A stretch of DNA of 33,982 bases, taken from assembly GCA_018623195.1 (NCBI GenBank), contig JAAZVY010000015.1, positions 1 through 33,982 of the forward strand, read 5' to 3'. Source of the DNA: Flavobacteriaceae bacterium. GTDB lineage: Bacteria; Bacteroidota; Bacteroidia; Flavobacteriales; Flavobacteriaceae. The translations under genes were made by a program, and so were the position numbers. Of the stretch, positions 1,418-13,958 are shown piece after piece (within the stretch, counting starts at the first letter, position 1; every line of letters starts with the position of its first letter). Below the pieces are notes generated by a model. It did not search any database and was not told the DNA's origin. It saw only the letters and a list, made by a program, of their open reading frames with translations.

Positions 1418-2014
1418 ATGCTACTTTCATTCTGGAGTGGATTACTTACCTCGAGTTCACATGTACTGTCAGGTCCTGATCACCTTGCAGCAATAACGCC
1501 TTTAGGCCTTCACTCTACTTCGAAATCCTATCGTGTCGGTTTAAGTTGGGGCGCCGGACACCTCATTGGTATTGGGTTAATTGCTACGCTGTACATTTTA
1601 TTTAGTGATCTAATACCTGTAGATTATATTGCTAGCTATAGTGAACAAGCGGTTGGTTTATTTTTGATACTGGTGGGCCTATGGTCACTTCGACAACGAG
1701 AAGCAAAAACGCATTCGAGTAAAACCCTATTATCTACCTCATTCTCAGTGGGTGTTGTTCACGGGTTTGCCGGAGTAGCACACTTCATTTTATTAATCCC
1801 GGTTCTATCATCGAATAGCACCTTAGAAACCATTCTTTATCTCATCGGATTTATCGGAGGAACCCTAGGCGCCATGACGTTATTCGCCTATTTGTTGGGC
1901 CTTATGTACAAAAGAGGGGCGATTGCCAAAGAATCAGGAGTAAAGAAAATACAGAGAGCAGGAGCAATTTTTGCAATCGTCGTCGGTTGTTACTGGATCT
2001 ATCTTTCGATCTAG
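1418..2014 (+). CDS. UreH/RcnA-like nickel permease, probably serving the hydrogenase
   Basis: This 198-aa integral membrane protein has about six hydrophobic segments. Near the N-terminus it carries H-x4-GPDHLAA (His15, Asp21, His22), which recalls the HX4DH metal-binding motif of NiCoT/RcnA/UreH-type nickel-cobalt carriers. GLSWGAGHLIG (His48) and GVVHGFAGVAH add further membrane histidines typical of the superfamily. Its stop codon overlaps that of the NHL-repeat gene by 4 bp, convergently, so it sits at the tail of the hydrogenase operon. Family and position together point to Ni2+ transport for [NiFe]-centre assembly. The direction (uptake or efflux) and the exact ion are inferred, not seen. 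Confidence 0.8.
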   Translation: MLLSFWSGLLTSSSHVLSGPDHLAAITPLGLHSTSKSYRVGLSWGAGHLIGIGLIATLYILFSDLIPVDYIASYSEQAVGLFLILVGLWSLRQREAKTHSSKTLLSTSFSVGVVHGFAGVAHFILLIPVLSSNSTLETILYLIGFIGGTLGAMTLFAYLLGLMYKRGAIAKESGVKKIQRAGAIFAIVVGCYWIYLSI

Positions 2015-3105
2015 AATTTTAAATCGGCAACTACTATTCGGTGATTTCCGGTATCAGCAATCACCAGCTTTTGACCCATTACACCTATAGAAAAAGGCCA
2101 GTAGATCGCTTTTTCTGTGCCCATGAGCGTCTGAGAATACTCGCTTGAAGTGTTAAAATCAGGTCTACCAATAACGAGTTGAGCTTCTGAATTATTATGG
2201 TCAGGTATTTGATCAAAAAATAAAATCCGACTATTTCCGGTATCATTAATAAGTATCCCGTTTTTATAAAAACAGCTATCATATACCCAATTCAAACATC
2301 GCTTATTAGGTTGTAAAAGAAACTGATTTTGACCCGATTGCTTTAAGTCATTTTGACCAAAGACAATTTCAGCTTTACTACTCAGAGCGTCTTTCCAATT
2401 CTTCCAATAAAGCACTCTAAAAAATTGAGTGTCCGCTATTAACAGCTCTCCCTTCGGACTAATTTTTACCGAGTAAGGCCATATCGGATCGTCTGATTCG
2501 TAATCTCTCTCATCAAAAGAAGGTTTACCTATTACATGATCGGCTGATTGATATGACTGTTCTGGGATGCTGTTATAAACTAGAACTCTTCGATTTCCTG
2601 TGTCGGCTATCCACAATCGCTGACCGTCACAAAAAATACCATAAGGCCAATTCAGTGACTGAGCAGAAGGCGCCTTACCCATTCCTTCCACATTGGGTTG
2701 ATTATTTTCGAAGTCAGGTTGCCCGATAACTACATCTGCAGCGGCACCATTTACGTCAGGAAAATGATTCCAAATAAGCACTCGGTGATTCCAGGCATCA
2801 GCGACGATTATTTTATCTCCTTCACACCAGATACTTGTTGGGTACAACAGTGTAGAAGCACTAGCTACATCCCCTTGATTTCTCGAAGTGGCAGCACCAT
2901 CTGATTGACCTAAAATAAGATCAGGTTCACGACTAAACCCCTCAGCGGGATTCTTCCATATAAGTACTCGGTTCTGACCCGTATCGCATACCGCAAAAAT
3001 CTTGTCGTTCAACAATACTCCTCTTGGGGCTAGAAAGGGCTTTTGATCAGGTCCTTTAAATACAATCGGATTAGCTACATGTTCTCCTAGAGTTTCAAGT
3101 CTCAT
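2011..3105 (-). CDS. NHL-repeat beta-propeller protein, last gene of the hydrogenase operon
   Basis: This 364-aa protein consists of about six repeats of a 50-60 residue unit. Each has the pattern ADTGNxRVLxW, then a variable loop, then A-x-x-VIGQPDF (for example NHRVLIWNHFPD, NRRVLVYNSIPE, NSRILFFDQIPD). These match NHL/six-bladed propeller repeats. There is no signal peptide or membrane segment, so it should be cytoplasmic. It starts 1 bp after the hypE stop and is therefore part of the hyp operon. Its role is unknown. Propellers of this kind are protein-interaction platforms, so a part in assembling or docking the hydrogenase is possible. From memory, NHL proteins also occur in other group 2a hydrogenase clusters; this needs a neighbourhood search. 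Confidence 0.88.
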   Translation of the reverse strand: MRLETLGEHVANPIVFKGPDQKPFLAPRGVLLNDKIFAVCDTGQNRVLIWKNPAEGFSREPDLILGQSDGAATSRNQGDVASASTLLYPTSIWCEGDKIIVADAWNHRVLIWNHFPDVNGAAADVVIGQPDFENNQPNVEGMGKAPSAQSLNWPYGIFCDGQRLWIADTGNRRVLVYNSIPEQSYQSADHVIGKPSFDERDYESDDPIWPYSVKISPKGELLIADTQFFRVLYWKNWKDALSSKAEIVFGQNDLKQSGQNQFLLQPNKRCLNWVYDSCFYKNGILINDTGNSRILFFDQIPDHNNSEAQLVIGRPDFNTSSEYSQTLMGTEKAIYWPFSIGVMGQKLVIADTGNHRIVVADLKF

Positions 3106-8444: not shown

Positions 8445-8795
8445 TTAATCGTCGTTAAATTCTACTTTATGAATCAACATTTCTTCGCCTTGAATAACCT
8501 CCTTAGATGGGGCCCCACAAGACTTACAAATAAATTTATAGTTCTGTACTTCTGAATCGACGTCACAGGATGAACAATGAATGACTAGTGGCGTTGATTC
8601 AATTTCTAAGGATACCTTAGAGAAGGTAGGATAGGTTTGTTGAAACGCTTCAAAGGCGTTCATTAGTAGGCGAGGTTCAATATTAGAAAGAATCCCAACC
8701 TTAAGAAATATCCGTTCAAGAGAGTTCAGTCGATCCTCACCAAACTCCATCTCTAGAGTTCGAGCTACACTGTTTATGATAGAAGTCTCATGCAT
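8445..8795 (-). CDS. hypA: Nickel metallochaperone HypA
   Basis: This 116-aa protein starts MHETSI. His2 with the N-terminal amine is the known nickel ligand of the family. The zinc finger is Cys74-x2-Cys77 and Cys90-x2-Cys93 (HCSSCDVD, FICKSCG). The start codon shares one base with the stop of the preceding TPR gene (TAATG), so the two are translationally coupled. Length and motifs are canonical. Confidence 0.97.
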   Translation of the reverse strand: MHETSIINSVARTLEMEFGEDRLNSLERIFLKVGILSNIEPRLLMNAFEAFQQTYPTFSKVSLEIESTPLVIHCSSCDVDSEVQNYKFICKSCGAPSKEVIQGEEMLIHKVEFNDD

Positions 8796-10267
8796 TATAT
8801 CAATTCTTTTAGGTTAGTAATCATTGTTGAGAATTCATCTACTTTTTCAAGTAAATAATCATCTTTGGTAAGTCCTCTTACTTCATCAACAATGTGTTCC
8901 ATTTGCTCTAAACGTGAGCGTTCTTGGCTCGCGTCTTCATTGTGTAACTTCAATTGGAGCTCTAGATAATTAAGTAAACTTATTACCCGTTTCTGAGGAA
9001 AAGAGTCTGAAGGCCTGTGACTAAGAGCTAATTCAAACAAGTCTTTTGCTTTAGCTAAATGATCATTTAGTTTGGCATCAGGAAAGTTCATGAGTGCGGT
9101 GGCATAGTTATGAGCCACTTCAGAAAGACTAACCGTATCCTCGGCCTCCTCATAGAGGGACATCGCTTCCTTAAAACACGAAGCGCTAAGCGCGTACCAC
9201 ATGGGCTGTTCACTGTCTGATGAAATCATGTCGGTATACAATAACGCCAAATTACCTTTTACCTCGGCACATTCATGGGGGTACTCTGACGGGGTAAACA
9301 CCTTCAGTGCATTCTGATAGGCATTGATCGAAGACTTATAATACTGAGGAGCACCATTCTTTGACCATCCGTAGAGAATTCGTCCTTTTAAAACCGATGC
9401 TTTTGCCATGAAGTACGACAGATCGAATTTTTTCAAAGCCAATAGCGCAGCATTAATCGACTTTAAAGCCTCTTCATATTTAGCCGATAGCAATTGTAAT
9501 TCTGCTAGGTCTAAATTCACAATAGCTGCCCTAAGTTCTTCTCCGTGATGGGTACAAAGCGAACTAAAATCCTTAAATACGGACTCAATTCGGTCTAGAG
9601 AGTCGGCCTGTTCGTCACTTTTCATCGAAACGTATTCAAGCATGGCCTGATCAAATAGTAGCAGCGTCTTGAACGGTTCATTCTGCACGGCAATATCGCG
9701 AGACGAAATCTCTAAACCGTCATCCAAACGATCAACTAACAGTTGATTCTGATGATGAATGAGGTAATACTTTGCATTTTCATCTTGAGCATTGGTGATG
9801 CAGTCTGAATACCACTGATTCTGCTCAAACGAGGAGTCAAAAAGATTCAAATTGTGAATGAATAAACATTGATTAGAAGGATCTAATCGCTCCCAAAACG
9901 GCATCACCTCCTCTTGTTGAATATCGTATCCATTTTGGATTAAGGCATAGATATAAAGCGTAGCAAATAATTCGTCTTCAGGAGATAGCAATTGAAGCGC
10001 ACGCTCATAATTACCCAACTTGAAAAAAACAAGCGCGTTGAAGATAGCCTCATCAAATTCTTGATCCTGAATGATAATAGGGAAGTTATTATCTGCCCAA
10101 TCAGGAAGAATTTCTATTCTCTGATGAGCAAGTTTAATATGATAGTGTTCACTTGCTAAAGCAACGAACTCGACGAGTTCGTTTAAACGGTCATGCTGAT
10201 CGATGATTGATTGAATACGATCCTTCTCTTCAGTTGAGATCGCTATTAAAACTTTCGGAAGTTCCAT
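8795..10267 (-). CDS. TPR-like helical-repeat protein of the hydrogenase operon (function unknown)
   Basis: This 490-aa, probably cytoplasmic protein has no signal peptide or membrane segment. Helical-hairpin repeats are visible: FKLGNYERALQLL near residue 80, KYEEALKSINAALLALKKF near 270, and VKGNLALLYTDM, SEVAHNYATAL and AKDLFELALSHRP towards the C-terminus. These look like degenerate tetratricopeptide repeats. The gene overlaps the 83-aa gene upstream by 38 bp and hypA downstream by one base, so it is locked into the operon. TPR proteins usually hold other proteins, so an assembly or docking role for HupSL is a reasonable guess but is unproven. I do not recognise a named family. Confidence 0.85.
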   Translation of the reverse strand: MELPKVLIAISTEEKDRIQSIIDQHDRLNELVEFVALASEHYHIKLAHQRIEILPDWADNNFPIIIQDQEFDEAIFNALVFFKLGNYERALQLLSPEDELFATLYIYALIQNGYDIQQEEVMPFWERLDPSNQCLFIHNLNLFDSSFEQNQWYSDCITNAQDENAKYYLIHHQNQLLVDRLDDGLEISSRDIAVQNEPFKTLLLFDQAMLEYVSMKSDEQADSLDRIESVFKDFSSLCTHHGEELRAAIVNLDLAELQLLSAKYEEALKSINAALLALKKFDLSYFMAKASVLKGRILYGWSKNGAPQYYKSSINAYQNALKVFTPSEYPHECAEVKGNLALLYTDMISSDSEQPMWYALSASCFKEAMSLYEEAEDTVSLSEVAHNYATALMNFPDAKLNDHLAKAKDLFELALSHRPSDSFPQKRVISLLNYLELQLKLHNEDASQERSRLEQMEHIVDEVRGLTKDDYLLEKVDEFSTMITNLKELI

Positions 10268-10481
10268 TCGATTGTTTGTGGTATTTATTGGCTTGTTGAA
10301 TATAAATAGATCCGTAGAGTTTTGCTAACGATTCTGTACGATGCGTCCCCATATGATGCATCAAATATTCTTGTGGATTATCTGGATTAATAAAGGTCAA
10401 ATAGACATGCCACTGTGATTTCTCTTCTTCAATATGAAAAGATACTGACGCATTTGGCAACCACTTTTCTGACCCCTCCAT
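10230..10481 (-). CDS. Unrecognised 83-aa protein inside the hydrogenase operon
   Basis: This is a small soluble protein with no signal, membrane segment or cysteine. The first part looks like beta strands (ASVSFHIEEE, WHVYLTFINPD), and a helical part follows (TESLAKLYGSIYIQQANKY). A His-Met patch, YLMHHMGTHR, lies near residue 40. The gene starts 2 bp after the 113-aa gene and its 3' end overlaps the TPR gene by 38 bp, so it is probably real and translationally coupled. I do not recognise a family. Its fixed place among structural and maturation genes suggests a hydrogenase-specific role. Confidence 0.75.
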   Translation of the reverse strand: MEGSEKWLPNASVSFHIEEEKSQWHVYLTFINPDNPQEYLMHHMGTHRTESLAKLYGSIYIQQANKYHKQSNGTSESFNSDLN

Positions 10482-10483
10482 TC

Positions 10484-10825
10484 TTAGAAATCAATTTGAA
10501 TTAAACCGGTCTTATCAGAGAATGAAATTTCTAGGTCATCAGTCGCCTTCGAATCAATTTCTAAATCGATAAGAAAAGGCTTGATATTAAGCGATTTAGC
10601 ACCTTCAAGGTTCTTTTGTTTTAACATCATCTGAGCTGCACCTTTGTGAACCTTAGTAAACCAAACTTGGGCTACGGCACAAATGTTCATTCGCTTATGG
10701 TCTAGATCTGTAGCGACATATACATGAGAAACTCTTCCAAAAAACTGATCTACCTGCTCAGGTGTGAAAATGAGATGATCTCCTTTAAATAAAATCTTAC
10801 AAAGGATTTGCTGAGAGTTTGACAT
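10484..10825 (-). CDS. Unrecognised 113-aa protein inside the hydrogenase operon
   Basis: This small soluble protein has mixed alpha/beta character, with no signal or membrane segment. It contains two cysteines (ILCKILF, MNICAVAQ), a central VSHVYVATDLDHKR stretch and an acidic C-terminus ending in IQIDF. Its start overlaps the 3' end of the maturation-protease gene by 29 bp, and it is followed 2 bp later by the 83-aa gene. No family is recognised. The cysteines are too few and too far apart for an iron-sulfur carrier on their own. Confidence 0.78.
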   Translation of the reverse strand: MSNSQQILCKILFKGDHLIFTPEQVDQFFGRVSHVYVATDLDHKRMNICAVAQVWFTKVHKGAAQMMLKQKNLEGAKSLNIKPFLIDLEIDSKATDDLEISFSDKTGLIQIDF

Positions 10826-11279
10826 CTTCTAAAATTTTCTGAACCACTTTTTCCCCAGCCTCTCGAACCACATCACTCAATTGAACTTCTAGTCTAGTAT
10901 CTTCGATAGCGATCAAATAAACCTCTATATCGGTAGGGAACTCATCTCTCATTATTTTTCGTGCATAACTCAGGGCTTGATCCCATTTCATGCTATGCAA
11001 AAAAACCATCGGATCTTCTTCAGGCTCAGCAGCTAATTCCATTGCTGGAACTTTAAAAATACTGCCTACTTCATGGCCACTGTTGATCACAGCATCAACC
11101 ATTATGATACGATCATGCCCTTTGAGTTTGAACAACACCTCAAAGGCCGATGTCCCCATGTCAAACAAAGTAACGGAATCATTTTCTGTGACGTATTTTT
11201 CTAGAGATTTAACCACTTCAACCCCTATAGCATCATCGCTTCTCACTGGGTTTCCAAATCCTAATATTGCTGTCTTCAT
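10797..11279 (-). CDS. hupD: [NiFe]-hydrogenase maturation endopeptidase (HupD/HupW type, family M52)
   Basis: This protease removes the C-terminal peptide of HupL once nickel is in place. I chose the ATG at 11277-11279 (160 aa, MKTAILGFGNPVRSDD). The longer start at 11309 would lie inside the intercistronic hairpin, and family members begin at this motif. The putative nickel-sensing or catalytic residues line up as Asp16 (in RSDDAIG), Asp62 (MVDAVINSG) and His95 (FLHSMKW), matching Glu16, Asp62 and His93 of HybD. The 3' end overlaps the 113-aa gene by 29 bp. In cyanobacteria the equivalent gene is called hupW. Confidence 0.94.
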   Translation of the reverse strand: MKTAILGFGNPVRSDDAIGVEVVKSLEKYVTENDSVTLFDMGTSAFEVLFKLKGHDRIIMVDAVINSGHEVGSIFKVPAMELAAEPEEDPMVFLHSMKWDQALSYARKIMRDEFPTDIEVYLIAIEDTRLEVQLSDVVREAGEKVVQKILEDVKLSANPL

Positions 11280-11293
11280 AAGCTTTAAAATAA

Positions 11294-11346: not shown

Positions 11347-12939
11347 TTAGATTTTGAAGCGGCTTAATTCAACTCCGCTCTTATCGTCATGGGCGTGAAC
11401 TGTACACACCAAACAAGAGTCAAATGAGCGAGCAACAATACCTACTTCAACAGGATCTTTTGGATCCTCTATTTCAGTATCTAGTAAGGCTGCTTCGATA
11501 GGGCCTGGATTATCATCACCATCTTGAGGACCAACATTCCATGTAGTCGGTGCCATCACCTGGTAATTTTTAATCACTCCATCTTTAATCTCAACCCAGT
11601 GCGCTAATGAACCACGAGCGGCTTCGGTAGCTCCGAATCCTTTACCATCCTTCTCAACAGGCTTGATATAGAATTCTCCATCTAGATCGATTTCACTGAG
11701 CCATTGATCAATGAGTTTATAAAGACGCGGTGCTTCGTGAACCCTAGCTAAAACTCTAGTGAAAACACTAGGTCCTAGTTTTTTAATAATATCTCCAAAA
11801 AGTGGATCGTGGATCTGGTGATCTTTCAAATTCGGATTTGCATACATGATACAACGAGCAAGCGGCCCAGCTTCTACCGCATGACCATCATATCGAGGTG
11901 CTTTCGCCCAAGAATATTGACCGTCAAAGTCTGTGTCATGTAAGGTTTGTGATTTAGCCGGATCTGGTAGTGGCTCATCCCAAGGGTGTAAGCCATCCTC
12001 TTGATTGTTGTACCAAGAGTGCTTCACGTGCTCACTAACTTTTAGGTGATCAAACTCATGCCAGTTTTCTCCATCGAAGAATCCGCTAGGGCTTATCAAA
12101 GCATCATTACGACCTTCTATGGTTGGATTATTGTAAAGATCCTTGTGTAAGTAAGTACCAAAAGCTAGGAACTTACCAACTCCCTTACCAAAACCATCTA
12201 AACCGAACTCAAGACCTGCTCTAATTAGCAAACCTAGATCACTGTTTTTATGAGAATCATTTTCTTCAACCCAGGCAAGCATATCGTCCCAAGTTTTGAT
12301 TTCCATGTAACGCTCAATAGAACAACCTAGCCAGATCGGCTCTAACCATTCATTCTTAAACTGAGTCATGATCGCATGGGCTCTAGTGATATCCTTTAAT
12401 GTAGGAGCACACATTACTCCTCCAGGTACCATGTAGCTAGAGTGTGGCCACTGACCACCAAACAAAGCATAAACCTGAACAGGAAGTGCACTTGCGGTTA
12501 ATCCTAATTGGAAGGTTTTACCAACATAAGCAGACCAACGTTCAACTACCTCTTTATAAAGGGGCTTGTCAGCATATTTTTTATTTGCTAGGTCTGTAGC
12601 GAAAATCGCATAAAACCATCGTGGAATACTCTGAATAGTTTCTGTAGCCTGACCAATTGCTCTAAGTAGTAAGGCGTTTGGAGGCAATTTAGTACCCCAA
12701 GCCGTATCTAAGGCCGAAGAAGCACAATACAAGTGAGAACCACCACAAATTCCACAAATTCTTGGAGTAACAATTAGACCTGATTGCGGGTCTTTTCCAG
12801 CCATAATTTTCTCAAATCCGCGAAACATCGCAGCTTGAGTATGTGCTCGAGTTACTTTTCCATTATCGATATATACCTTGACATCTAGATCTCCCTCTAC
12901 ACGTCCTACAGGTGAAATATTTAATTCTTTTACTGCCAT
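11347..12939 (-). CDS. hupL: Uptake [NiFe]-hydrogenase large subunit, group 2a / cyanobacterial HupL type
   Basis: This is the catalytic subunit holding the Ni-Fe centre for H2 oxidation. The 530-aa protein has the L1 motif RICGICGGSH (Cys62, Cys65) and the L2 motif DSCLVCTVHAHD (Cys509, Cys512), the four cysteine ligands. The protease should cut after His515 and release a 15-residue tail. The N-terminal SPVGRVEGDLDV, the segment GGQWPHSSYMVPGGVMCAPTL (here written as GGQWPHSSY and MVPGGVMCAPTL) and WVEIKDGVIKNYQVMAPTTW are, from memory, nearly those of cyanobacterial HupL. This places it in group 2a rather than group 1. It has no signal peptide and starts 8 bp after hupS. Confidence 0.97.
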   Translation of the reverse strand: MAVKELNISPVGRVEGDLDVKVYIDNGKVTRAHTQAAMFRGFEKIMAGKDPQSGLIVTPRICGICGGSHLYCASSALDTAWGTKLPPNALLLRAIGQATETIQSIPRWFYAIFATDLANKKYADKPLYKEVVERWSAYVGKTFQLGLTASALPVQVYALFGGQWPHSSYMVPGGVMCAPTLKDITRAHAIMTQFKNEWLEPIWLGCSIERYMEIKTWDDMLAWVEENDSHKNSDLGLLIRAGLEFGLDGFGKGVGKFLAFGTYLHKDLYNNPTIEGRNDALISPSGFFDGENWHEFDHLKVSEHVKHSWYNNQEDGLHPWDEPLPDPAKSQTLHDTDFDGQYSWAKAPRYDGHAVEAGPLARCIMYANPNLKDHQIHDPLFGDIIKKLGPSVFTRVLARVHEAPRLYKLIDQWLSEIDLDGEFYIKPVEKDGKGFGATEAARGSLAHWVEIKDGVIKNYQVMAPTTWNVGPQDGDDNPGPIEAALLDTEIEDPKDPVEVGIVARSFDSCLVCTVHAHDDKSGVELSRFKI

Positions 12940-12947
12940 TTTATTAA

Positions 12948-13907
12948 TTATTTAGAGGCTTCAGTAAATTGTTTTTTAGTCGGAAGAACCTTGTGGAATC
13001 CAGCCTCAACATAATAAGAGAACTTAGACTGACCTGTTGGTACTTCTTTAGGGAATACTCCTAAATGCTTCATTGTTTTCAGAACACTTCCTTTCATAAG
13101 GTCGTTATGTGGGAAGCCTGGCTCAGTACATCCTAAACATGGGTGATTTGCACGAGTCTTACTCGACTGGCGATTCCATAGGATGTTATTACAACTTGCA
13201 CGAGTCATTGGCCCTCTACAACCAACTTCGTAGAATAGACATCCACCTCGTTTACCAAAGTTTCCTTCGACCTTCTGAGCGAAGTTTACCACGTTGGTAC
13301 ATCCGTTCTGAACAAAGTCAGTAAAGAATGTTTTTGGACGATGATAATCATCGATCAGTACATCACCTATTCTACCTACGGCAATAGCTACCAAAATTTG
13401 GGTAATCCAATCAGGGTGTGCAGGACATCCAGGAATGTTTATTACAGGCAAACCGCCTTTAGACACGTAATCAGCACCTAAGAATCCTCCTTTTTTCTTT
13501 TTGTGAAACTGAAGACCCGTAGACTCTGATGGGTTTGGTGGAACCGCAGGAATCCCTCCCCAAGTTGCACAGTCACCGATAGCGACAACATAACCTGCAA
13601 CTTCAGAAAGCTCTTTGATCCAGTCCATCATCGGACGATCAGCAAAATAGTTCATCGAACCCGTATTGTTCGGCCCTTGAATTAAGGATCCTTCATACAC
13701 TAAAATGTCCATTTGAACTTTGCCCTTGATAATGTCGTTGAGCAAGTCTTGAACTTGATCACCGATTTGAAGACCTGTAGTTGGATGCCAAAGAATGTTT
13801 AACCCGAAGTCAGTGATTAACTCAACAACTGTAGGCTCTTCGGCATTTAAAAACGACATCGTATTGCCGCTACAAGCCCCTCCTTGGAGCCATAAAACAT
13901 TTGCCAT
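12948..13907 (-). CDS. hupS: Uptake [NiFe]-hydrogenase small subunit, group 2a / cyanobacterial HupS type
   Basis: This is the iron-sulfur electron-transfer subunit. I start it at the ATG at 13905-13907 (319 aa, MANVLWLQGG). The frame also extends to a GTG at 13937, but the ten extra residues are not a signal peptide, and cyanobacterial HupS starts at the same place. Proximal-cluster residues are Cys12, Cys113 and Cys161, but the usual fourth cysteine is Asn15 (CSGN). Distal and medial candidates are His189, Cys203, Cys223, Cys230, Cys239, Cys257 and Cys260. No Tat motif and no C-terminal membrane anchor are present, so the enzyme should stay in the cytoplasm. Confidence 0.97.
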   Translation of the reverse strand: MANVLWLQGGACSGNTMSFLNAEEPTVVELITDFGLNILWHPTTGLQIGDQVQDLLNDIIKGKVQMDILVYEGSLIQGPNNTGSMNYFADRPMMDWIKELSEVAGYVVAIGDCATWGGIPAVPPNPSESTGLQFHKKKKGGFLGADYVSKGGLPVINIPGCPAHPDWITQILVAIAVGRIGDVLIDDYHRPKTFFTDFVQNGCTNVVNFAQKVEGNFGKRGGCLFYEVGCRGPMTRASCNNILWNRQSSKTRANHPCLGCTEPGFPHNDLMKGSVLKTMKHLGVFPKEVPTGQSKFSYYVEAGFHKVLPTKKQFTEASK

Positions 13908-13958
13908 GAGAATAGTTTTTGTTTGTTTAAGGTGCACTAATATGTGAAAAAAAATGAC

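Follow-up and report, generated by a model that had tools for sequence, protein, structure and literature searches.

Maturation of a [NiFe]-hydrogenase includes a protease that acts on the large subunit, and in the group 1 uptake hydrogenases class-specific accessory genes (HupGHIJK, HoxOQRTV) lie between the structural and the hyp genes. Two small proteins, here called p113 and p83, likewise lie between these two sets of genes in a group 2a hydrogenase locus of a Flavobacteriaceae bacterium (GenBank assembly GCA_018623195.1, contig JAAZVY010000015.1; the whole stretch analysed, 33,982 nucleotides, is hereafter the window). However, their gene set differs from those of group 1, and p113, p83 and their homologues gave no Pfam or NCBIfam match above cut-off, the HupGHIJK families included. 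A first-pass annotation of the window had put both proteins forward as candidate undescribed subunits or assembly factors of group 2a hydrogenases. As described below, the link to this class is strong, across phyla for p113 and more loosely for p83, and gene order and two gene fusions support the assembly-factor part of that claim.

Several other described systems bear on these genes. The maturation protease of the HupW or HyaD-HybD type (HycI, TIGR00072) directly precedes p113 in almost every cluster, but p113 itself has no protease domain and the classical protease needs no p113-like domain. HucM (DUF1641) and HucE (NifU-Rieske) are, like p113 and p83, non-catalytic genes of group 2a clusters, but show no sequence relation to them. 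In Nostoc, asr0689-alr0692 lie between hupSL and hyp and were proposed by Lindblad's group for small-subunit maturation, and in the extended hyp operon asr0689-asr0690-alr0691, part of a group 2a cluster, two small open reading frames (ORFs) likewise precede a TPR gene. Each of these ORFs is described as having two membrane regions, whereas p113 and p83 look soluble, and by that description only we rejected p113 and p83 as asr0689 and asr0690. Islam et al. 2020 (PMC7784904) remarked on "hypothetical proteins" beside hucL, and in a Parageobacillus cluster, alike by position only, a hypothetical gene between the protease and TPR genes is upregulated along with hupL when growth is near zero (PMC12976888). 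A literature search, with most subscription journals outside its reach, found no description of these two families, their fusions or the fold. Hydrogenase-class accessory factors are thus known as a kind, and the p113 and p83 families appear to be new.

Occurrence of p113 and p83 with group 2a hydrogenases

A HupL scan of genome contigs gave 80 loci, nearly all from Bacteroidota, and a scan of viral contigs gave no match; counting was based on the 76 hupL genes that have 3 kb or more of sequence downstream. The p113 profile, seeded with 7 sequences, grew to 82 members at convergence, and the p83 profile, seeded with 9, to 95. After hupL, the order hupW, p113, p83 (where present) and TPR gene was found in 73/76 loci, the three exceptions also lacked hupW, and HupW and p113 never occurred without each other. 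Two loci (L089 and L092) carry a second hupSL pair without a p113 of its own and the full set elsewhere in the same locus, which fits a shared, trans-acting factor. Among 395 genomes of the class, p113 was present in exactly those eight that have a full-length group 2a HupL; several of the eight fed the profile, so presence is partly by construction and absence elsewhere is the informative part. The 387 genomes without p113 include nine that have only more distant [NiFe]-hydrogenases.

The p83 family is placed more freely. It lies downstream of hupSL in 43/76 loci (directly after p113 in 41), upstream of hupS in 42/76 and anywhere nearby in 69/76. The upstream and downstream copies split once on the tree (support 88/71; 97% of bootstrap trees), which suggests that the family was probably duplicated early, each copy keeping its place. 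In the genome survey p83 was found in the same eight genomes as p113 and, as one divergent orphan, in one more (G207), and two further matches at E 0.007-0.008 look like noise.

Group 2a clusters from outside Bacteroidota were drawn from a plasmid collection, a sample that leaves out Cyanobacteria, Nitrospira and M. smegmatis. Here, a p113 homologue follows the protease in Thermus (as an unannotated ORF, L099:12092-12412) and in the Alphaproteobacteria Sphingopyxis, Novosphingobium, Bradyrhizobium, Mesorhizobium and Octadecabacter. In Sphingopyxis alaskensis RB2256, which carries its group 2a genes on a plasmid and has been shown to take up H2 (PMC10305171), the p113 gene is SALA_RS16250. Taken together, p113 occurs with group 2a hydrogenases in Bacteroidota, Actinomycetota, Deinococcota, Bacillota and Pseudomonadota, and also in a metagenome-assembled genome (MAG) labelled Gemmatimonadaceae (L095). 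Alignments from Bacteroidota and from outside match each other with a profile-profile E of 3.6e-11, and LLKxRNxxGD(K/R) is their common signature. In a Mycobacterium plasmid, the protein annotated as the protease carries a C-terminal p113 domain, which aligns with the Bacteroidota profile at E 2e-5 (hhalign) and has 52% identity (E 4e-27) to the stand-alone Thermus p113, and this fusion is followed by an 85-aa p83 (E 7e-9) and then by a TPR-like gene. In Sulfobacillus, Sulac_3577 (165 aa) joins both families in one protein, its N-terminus being p113 (E 1e-14 to the Thermus protein and 4e-9 to the Mycobacterium protease tail) and its C-terminus p83 (E 5e-11).

The alphaproteobacterial clusters hold further small genes. 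Two membrane proteins of about 70 aa lie between the TPR-like and NifU genes of Sphingopyxis (L101:14280-14725), and one or two in other Alphaproteobacteria. By description, it is these proteins that the small Nostoc ORFs resemble, and they are possible counterparts of asr0689 and asr0690 and candidate membrane anchors. Between hupL and hupW, Alphaproteobacteria also carry two related Cys-containing small proteins (L101:11680-12389), which end in ...CMYYL..RR.CDLPEL....EP.W.CRLWRI.

The locus in the window

The genes discussed here, all on the minus strand, are the following.

12948..13937, minus strand: HupS, hydrogenase small subunit
11347..12939, minus strand: HupL, large subunit of a group 2a (Huc-type) [NiFe]-hydrogenase; in the PDB it matches HucL best (7uus, 7utd)
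10797..11282, minus strand: HupW, HycI/TIGR00072 hydrogenase maturation protease
10484..10825, minus strand: p113, 113 aa, putative group-2a-specific accessory protein with a predicted MraZ/AbrB-like pseudobarrel
10230..10481, minus strand: p83, 83 aa, predicted alpha-beta-beta-beta-alpha; "down" paralogue of its family, which in other Bacteroidota has a further member ahead of hupS
8795..10267, minus strand: TPR-repeat protein, 490 aa, gene after p83
8445..8795, minus strand: HypA, after the TPR gene in the conserved operon order
2011..3105, minus strand: NHL-repeat protein, last gene of the hyp run in many clusters

The full order is hupS, hupL, hupW, p113, p83, the TPR gene, hypA, hypB, hypF, hypC, hypD, hypE and the NHL gene. 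Both small ORFs lie where the first-pass annotation had placed them, and the overlaps that it gave are exact: HupW and p113 share 29 bp (10797-10825), a gap of 2 bp (10482-10483) separates p113 from p83, and p83 shares 38 bp (10230-10267) with the TPR gene. It had also recognised no family, signal peptide or membrane helix in either protein; this holds for Pfam, NCBIfam and PDB sequences, and for signal peptides and helices as judged from sequence and model with no dedicated predictor.

The closest comparison is a near relative, a Flavobacteriaceae MAG (L016) whose HupL is 100% identical to that of the window. Against it, synonymous and non-synonymous differences number 17 and 1 in p113 (ratio of non-synonymous to synonymous rates, dN/dS, 0.01) and 8 and 2 in p83 (dN/dS 0.05). 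This purifying selection, together with homologues at this position in dozens of genomes, indicates that both are more than chance ORFs. In the lineage of the window, p113, p83 and the TPR protein have only 30-33% identity to those of other Flavobacteriaceae, compared with 54-67% among those others, and the three have diverged together while HupL keeps 90% identity. The window's p113 reads GAK where the family has GDK, and the DxRGTL motif is missing from the tail of the window's p83; despite these changes, both proteins are strongly constrained relative to L016.

Other neighbours of hupS were also recorded. The genes directly upstream of hupS in the window (window:14100-15732) encode a membrane protein of HupE/UreJ type and a DUF4198 protein, which may together serve nickel uptake. 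A second full-length hupS stands upstream of hupS-hupL in Saprospiraceae/Lewinellaceae-type clusters (L045, L052, L054, L055, L059, L064, L065 and L076), and in the seven loci checked this extra HupS is 64-71% identical to the HupS of the window and retains all nine cysteines of the latter. Near hupS of Bacteroidota group 2a loci, TetR regulators occur in 52 loci and a bifunctional nuclease in 19 (e.g. L012:2791-4090 and L010:12693-13950), and the upstream copy of p83 adjoins the TetR genes.

Predicted folds and possible roles

The AlphaFold2 model of p113, built with 67 homologues, is a confident one (predicted local distance difference test, pLDDT, 92; predicted TM-score 0.83) with two repeats of strand-helix-hairpin. 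Its top match in VIA-align is MraZ 9sz7 (Z 9.1, root-mean-square deviation 2.7 over 93/113 residues), with plant B3 DNA-binding domains next (Z 5.8), and Foldseek backs the MraZ likeness weakly (E 0.03, probability 0.99). We therefore predict p113 to be a MraZ/AbrB-type pseudobarrel, that is, a tandem swapped-hairpin fold of AbrB type. The p83 model (pLDDT 78) is alpha-beta-beta-beta-alpha with a disordered tail, and structure searches with it gave mixed weak matches, the best at Z 6.5, including DHX29/DCL4 double-stranded-RNA-binding-domain-like ones in Foldseek at E 0.02-0.05; among the folds listed, no match to a double-stranded-RNA-binding or HPF-like fold stood out clearly.

The fold of p113 raises the possibility that it binds DNA and autoregulates the hydrogenase operon as a transcription factor of MraZ/AbrB type, with p83 as its partner, and the TetR-type genes of the 52 loci, together with the position of the second p83 paralogue beside them, also speak for regulation. 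This is quite unlikely, since sequence and gene context both differ from those of MraZ and the AbrB/B3 pseudobarrels. A comparison of the p113 profile with 19 MraZ sequences gave no sequence relation (hhalign E 0.1 or worse), and neither p113 nor any of 66 homologues matched MraZ (PF02381) in Pfam. DxxxR is the DNA-contact motif in each MraZ repeat; it was not found in the p113 alignment, where LKxxHL and RNxxGD(K/R) stand instead. Membership of p113 in the MraZ family was ruled out on these grounds. In addition, p113 is near-neutral (median isoelectric point 6.3) and is fused to a protease in Mycobacterium, and a genuine mraZ, with DxxxR visible in its protein, lies on another contig of this genome (G000:C94). 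Another role for p113 or p83 would be that of a subunit, whether structural, anchoring or electron-transferring, in place of HucM or HucE in Bacteroidota. Neither HucM nor HucE was found in the Bacteroidota loci, and the first-pass annotation had seen no electron acceptor or anchor in the locus; across the genome (a 1.7 Mb assembly, 87% complete) this was borne out: no HucM was found, and of HucE there were just two short matches within the NifU part. Moreover, the second p83 paralogue upstream of hupS takes the place that the HucM gene has in Mycobacterium and Thermus. However, the Mycobacterium plasmid, whose DUF1641 protein matches HucM in the PDB, carries both proteins alongside HucM and HucE, and in Thermus p113 likewise accompanies them. 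On this sequence evidence they are unlikely to be the missing electron carriers of the Bacteroidota enzymes, and p83 as a HucM replacement was downgraded. In PDB searches the p113 and p83 profiles matched no chain of the Huc complex, whereas HupL finds HucL and HucM finds its own chain, the cysteines of p113 are not conserved across the alignment, and second hupSL pairs do without a p113 of their own. The subunit half of the first-pass claim is therefore disfavoured, and we regard such a subunit as unlikely. A third alternative places p113 and p83 in small-subunit maturation, with a role in inserting iron-sulphur clusters into HupS, as has been proposed for the Nostoc genes asr0689-alr0692. 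This is distinctly improbable, since the fusion partner in Mycobacterium is a protease, which acts on the large subunit, and the membrane regions of the small Nostoc ORFs are unlike p113 and p83.

Proposed role in HupL maturation

We consider it somewhat probable that p113 and p83 are accessory (maturation or assembly) factors dedicated to group 2a hydrogenases, working as a unit with HupW and the TPR protein. A role in HupL maturation is suggested by the fusion of p113 to the protease, by its strict neighbourhood with the protease gene and by its pairing with p83 and the TPR protein. Several observations weigh against this reading. The best-known proteins with the fold of p113 bind DNA, each fusion (protease-p113 and p113-p83) comes from a single record, and p83 is not adjacent to p113 in many loci, with none detected near hupSL in 7/76. 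The first-pass annotation had held that homologues commonly found far from hydrogenases would speak against its claim, and this applies in part to p83: besides its absence from several loci, the orphan relative in G207 (L096:8449-8928, 159 aa) lies away from any hydrogenase gene, in a genome that lacks group 2a HupL. Co-divergence of HupW, p113, p83 and the TPR protein is real but was dropped as evidence of binding, as the HypF, HypE and NHL controls showed no specificity, HypE and HypF co-diverging about as strongly as these four.

For the dedicated accessory factors proposed here, we infer that they bind directly, that their target is HupL and not HupS, and at which step they act. The solved HucL chains end opposite residue 515 of the 530 residues of the window's HupL, which points to a C-terminal extension of about 15 residues. 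On the nickel-loaded HupL precursor, p113 would serve as a substrate-recognition or checkpoint partner of HupW, and the last 15 or so residues would be cut off. In this scheme p83 would bind p113, and the TPR protein would hold the complex during cleavage, after which HupL would be passed on to pair with HupS. A narrower and clearly more tentative possibility is that p113 is a non-DNA-binding pseudobarrel co-protease, which limits the maturation protease to nickel-loaded group 2a HupL, and that p83 and the TPR protein complete the processing complex.

Many aerobes, including those of the sea, use group 2a hydrogenases to oxidise atmospheric H2, and all maturation factors must be known if such oxygen-tolerant enzymes are to be made in other hosts. 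We propose p113 and p83, one of them fused to the protease, as direct candidates for missing maturation factors that can be tested in cultured strains. If true, the co-protease reading would mean a previously unseen processing complex dedicated to hydrogenases of the atmospheric-H2 type.
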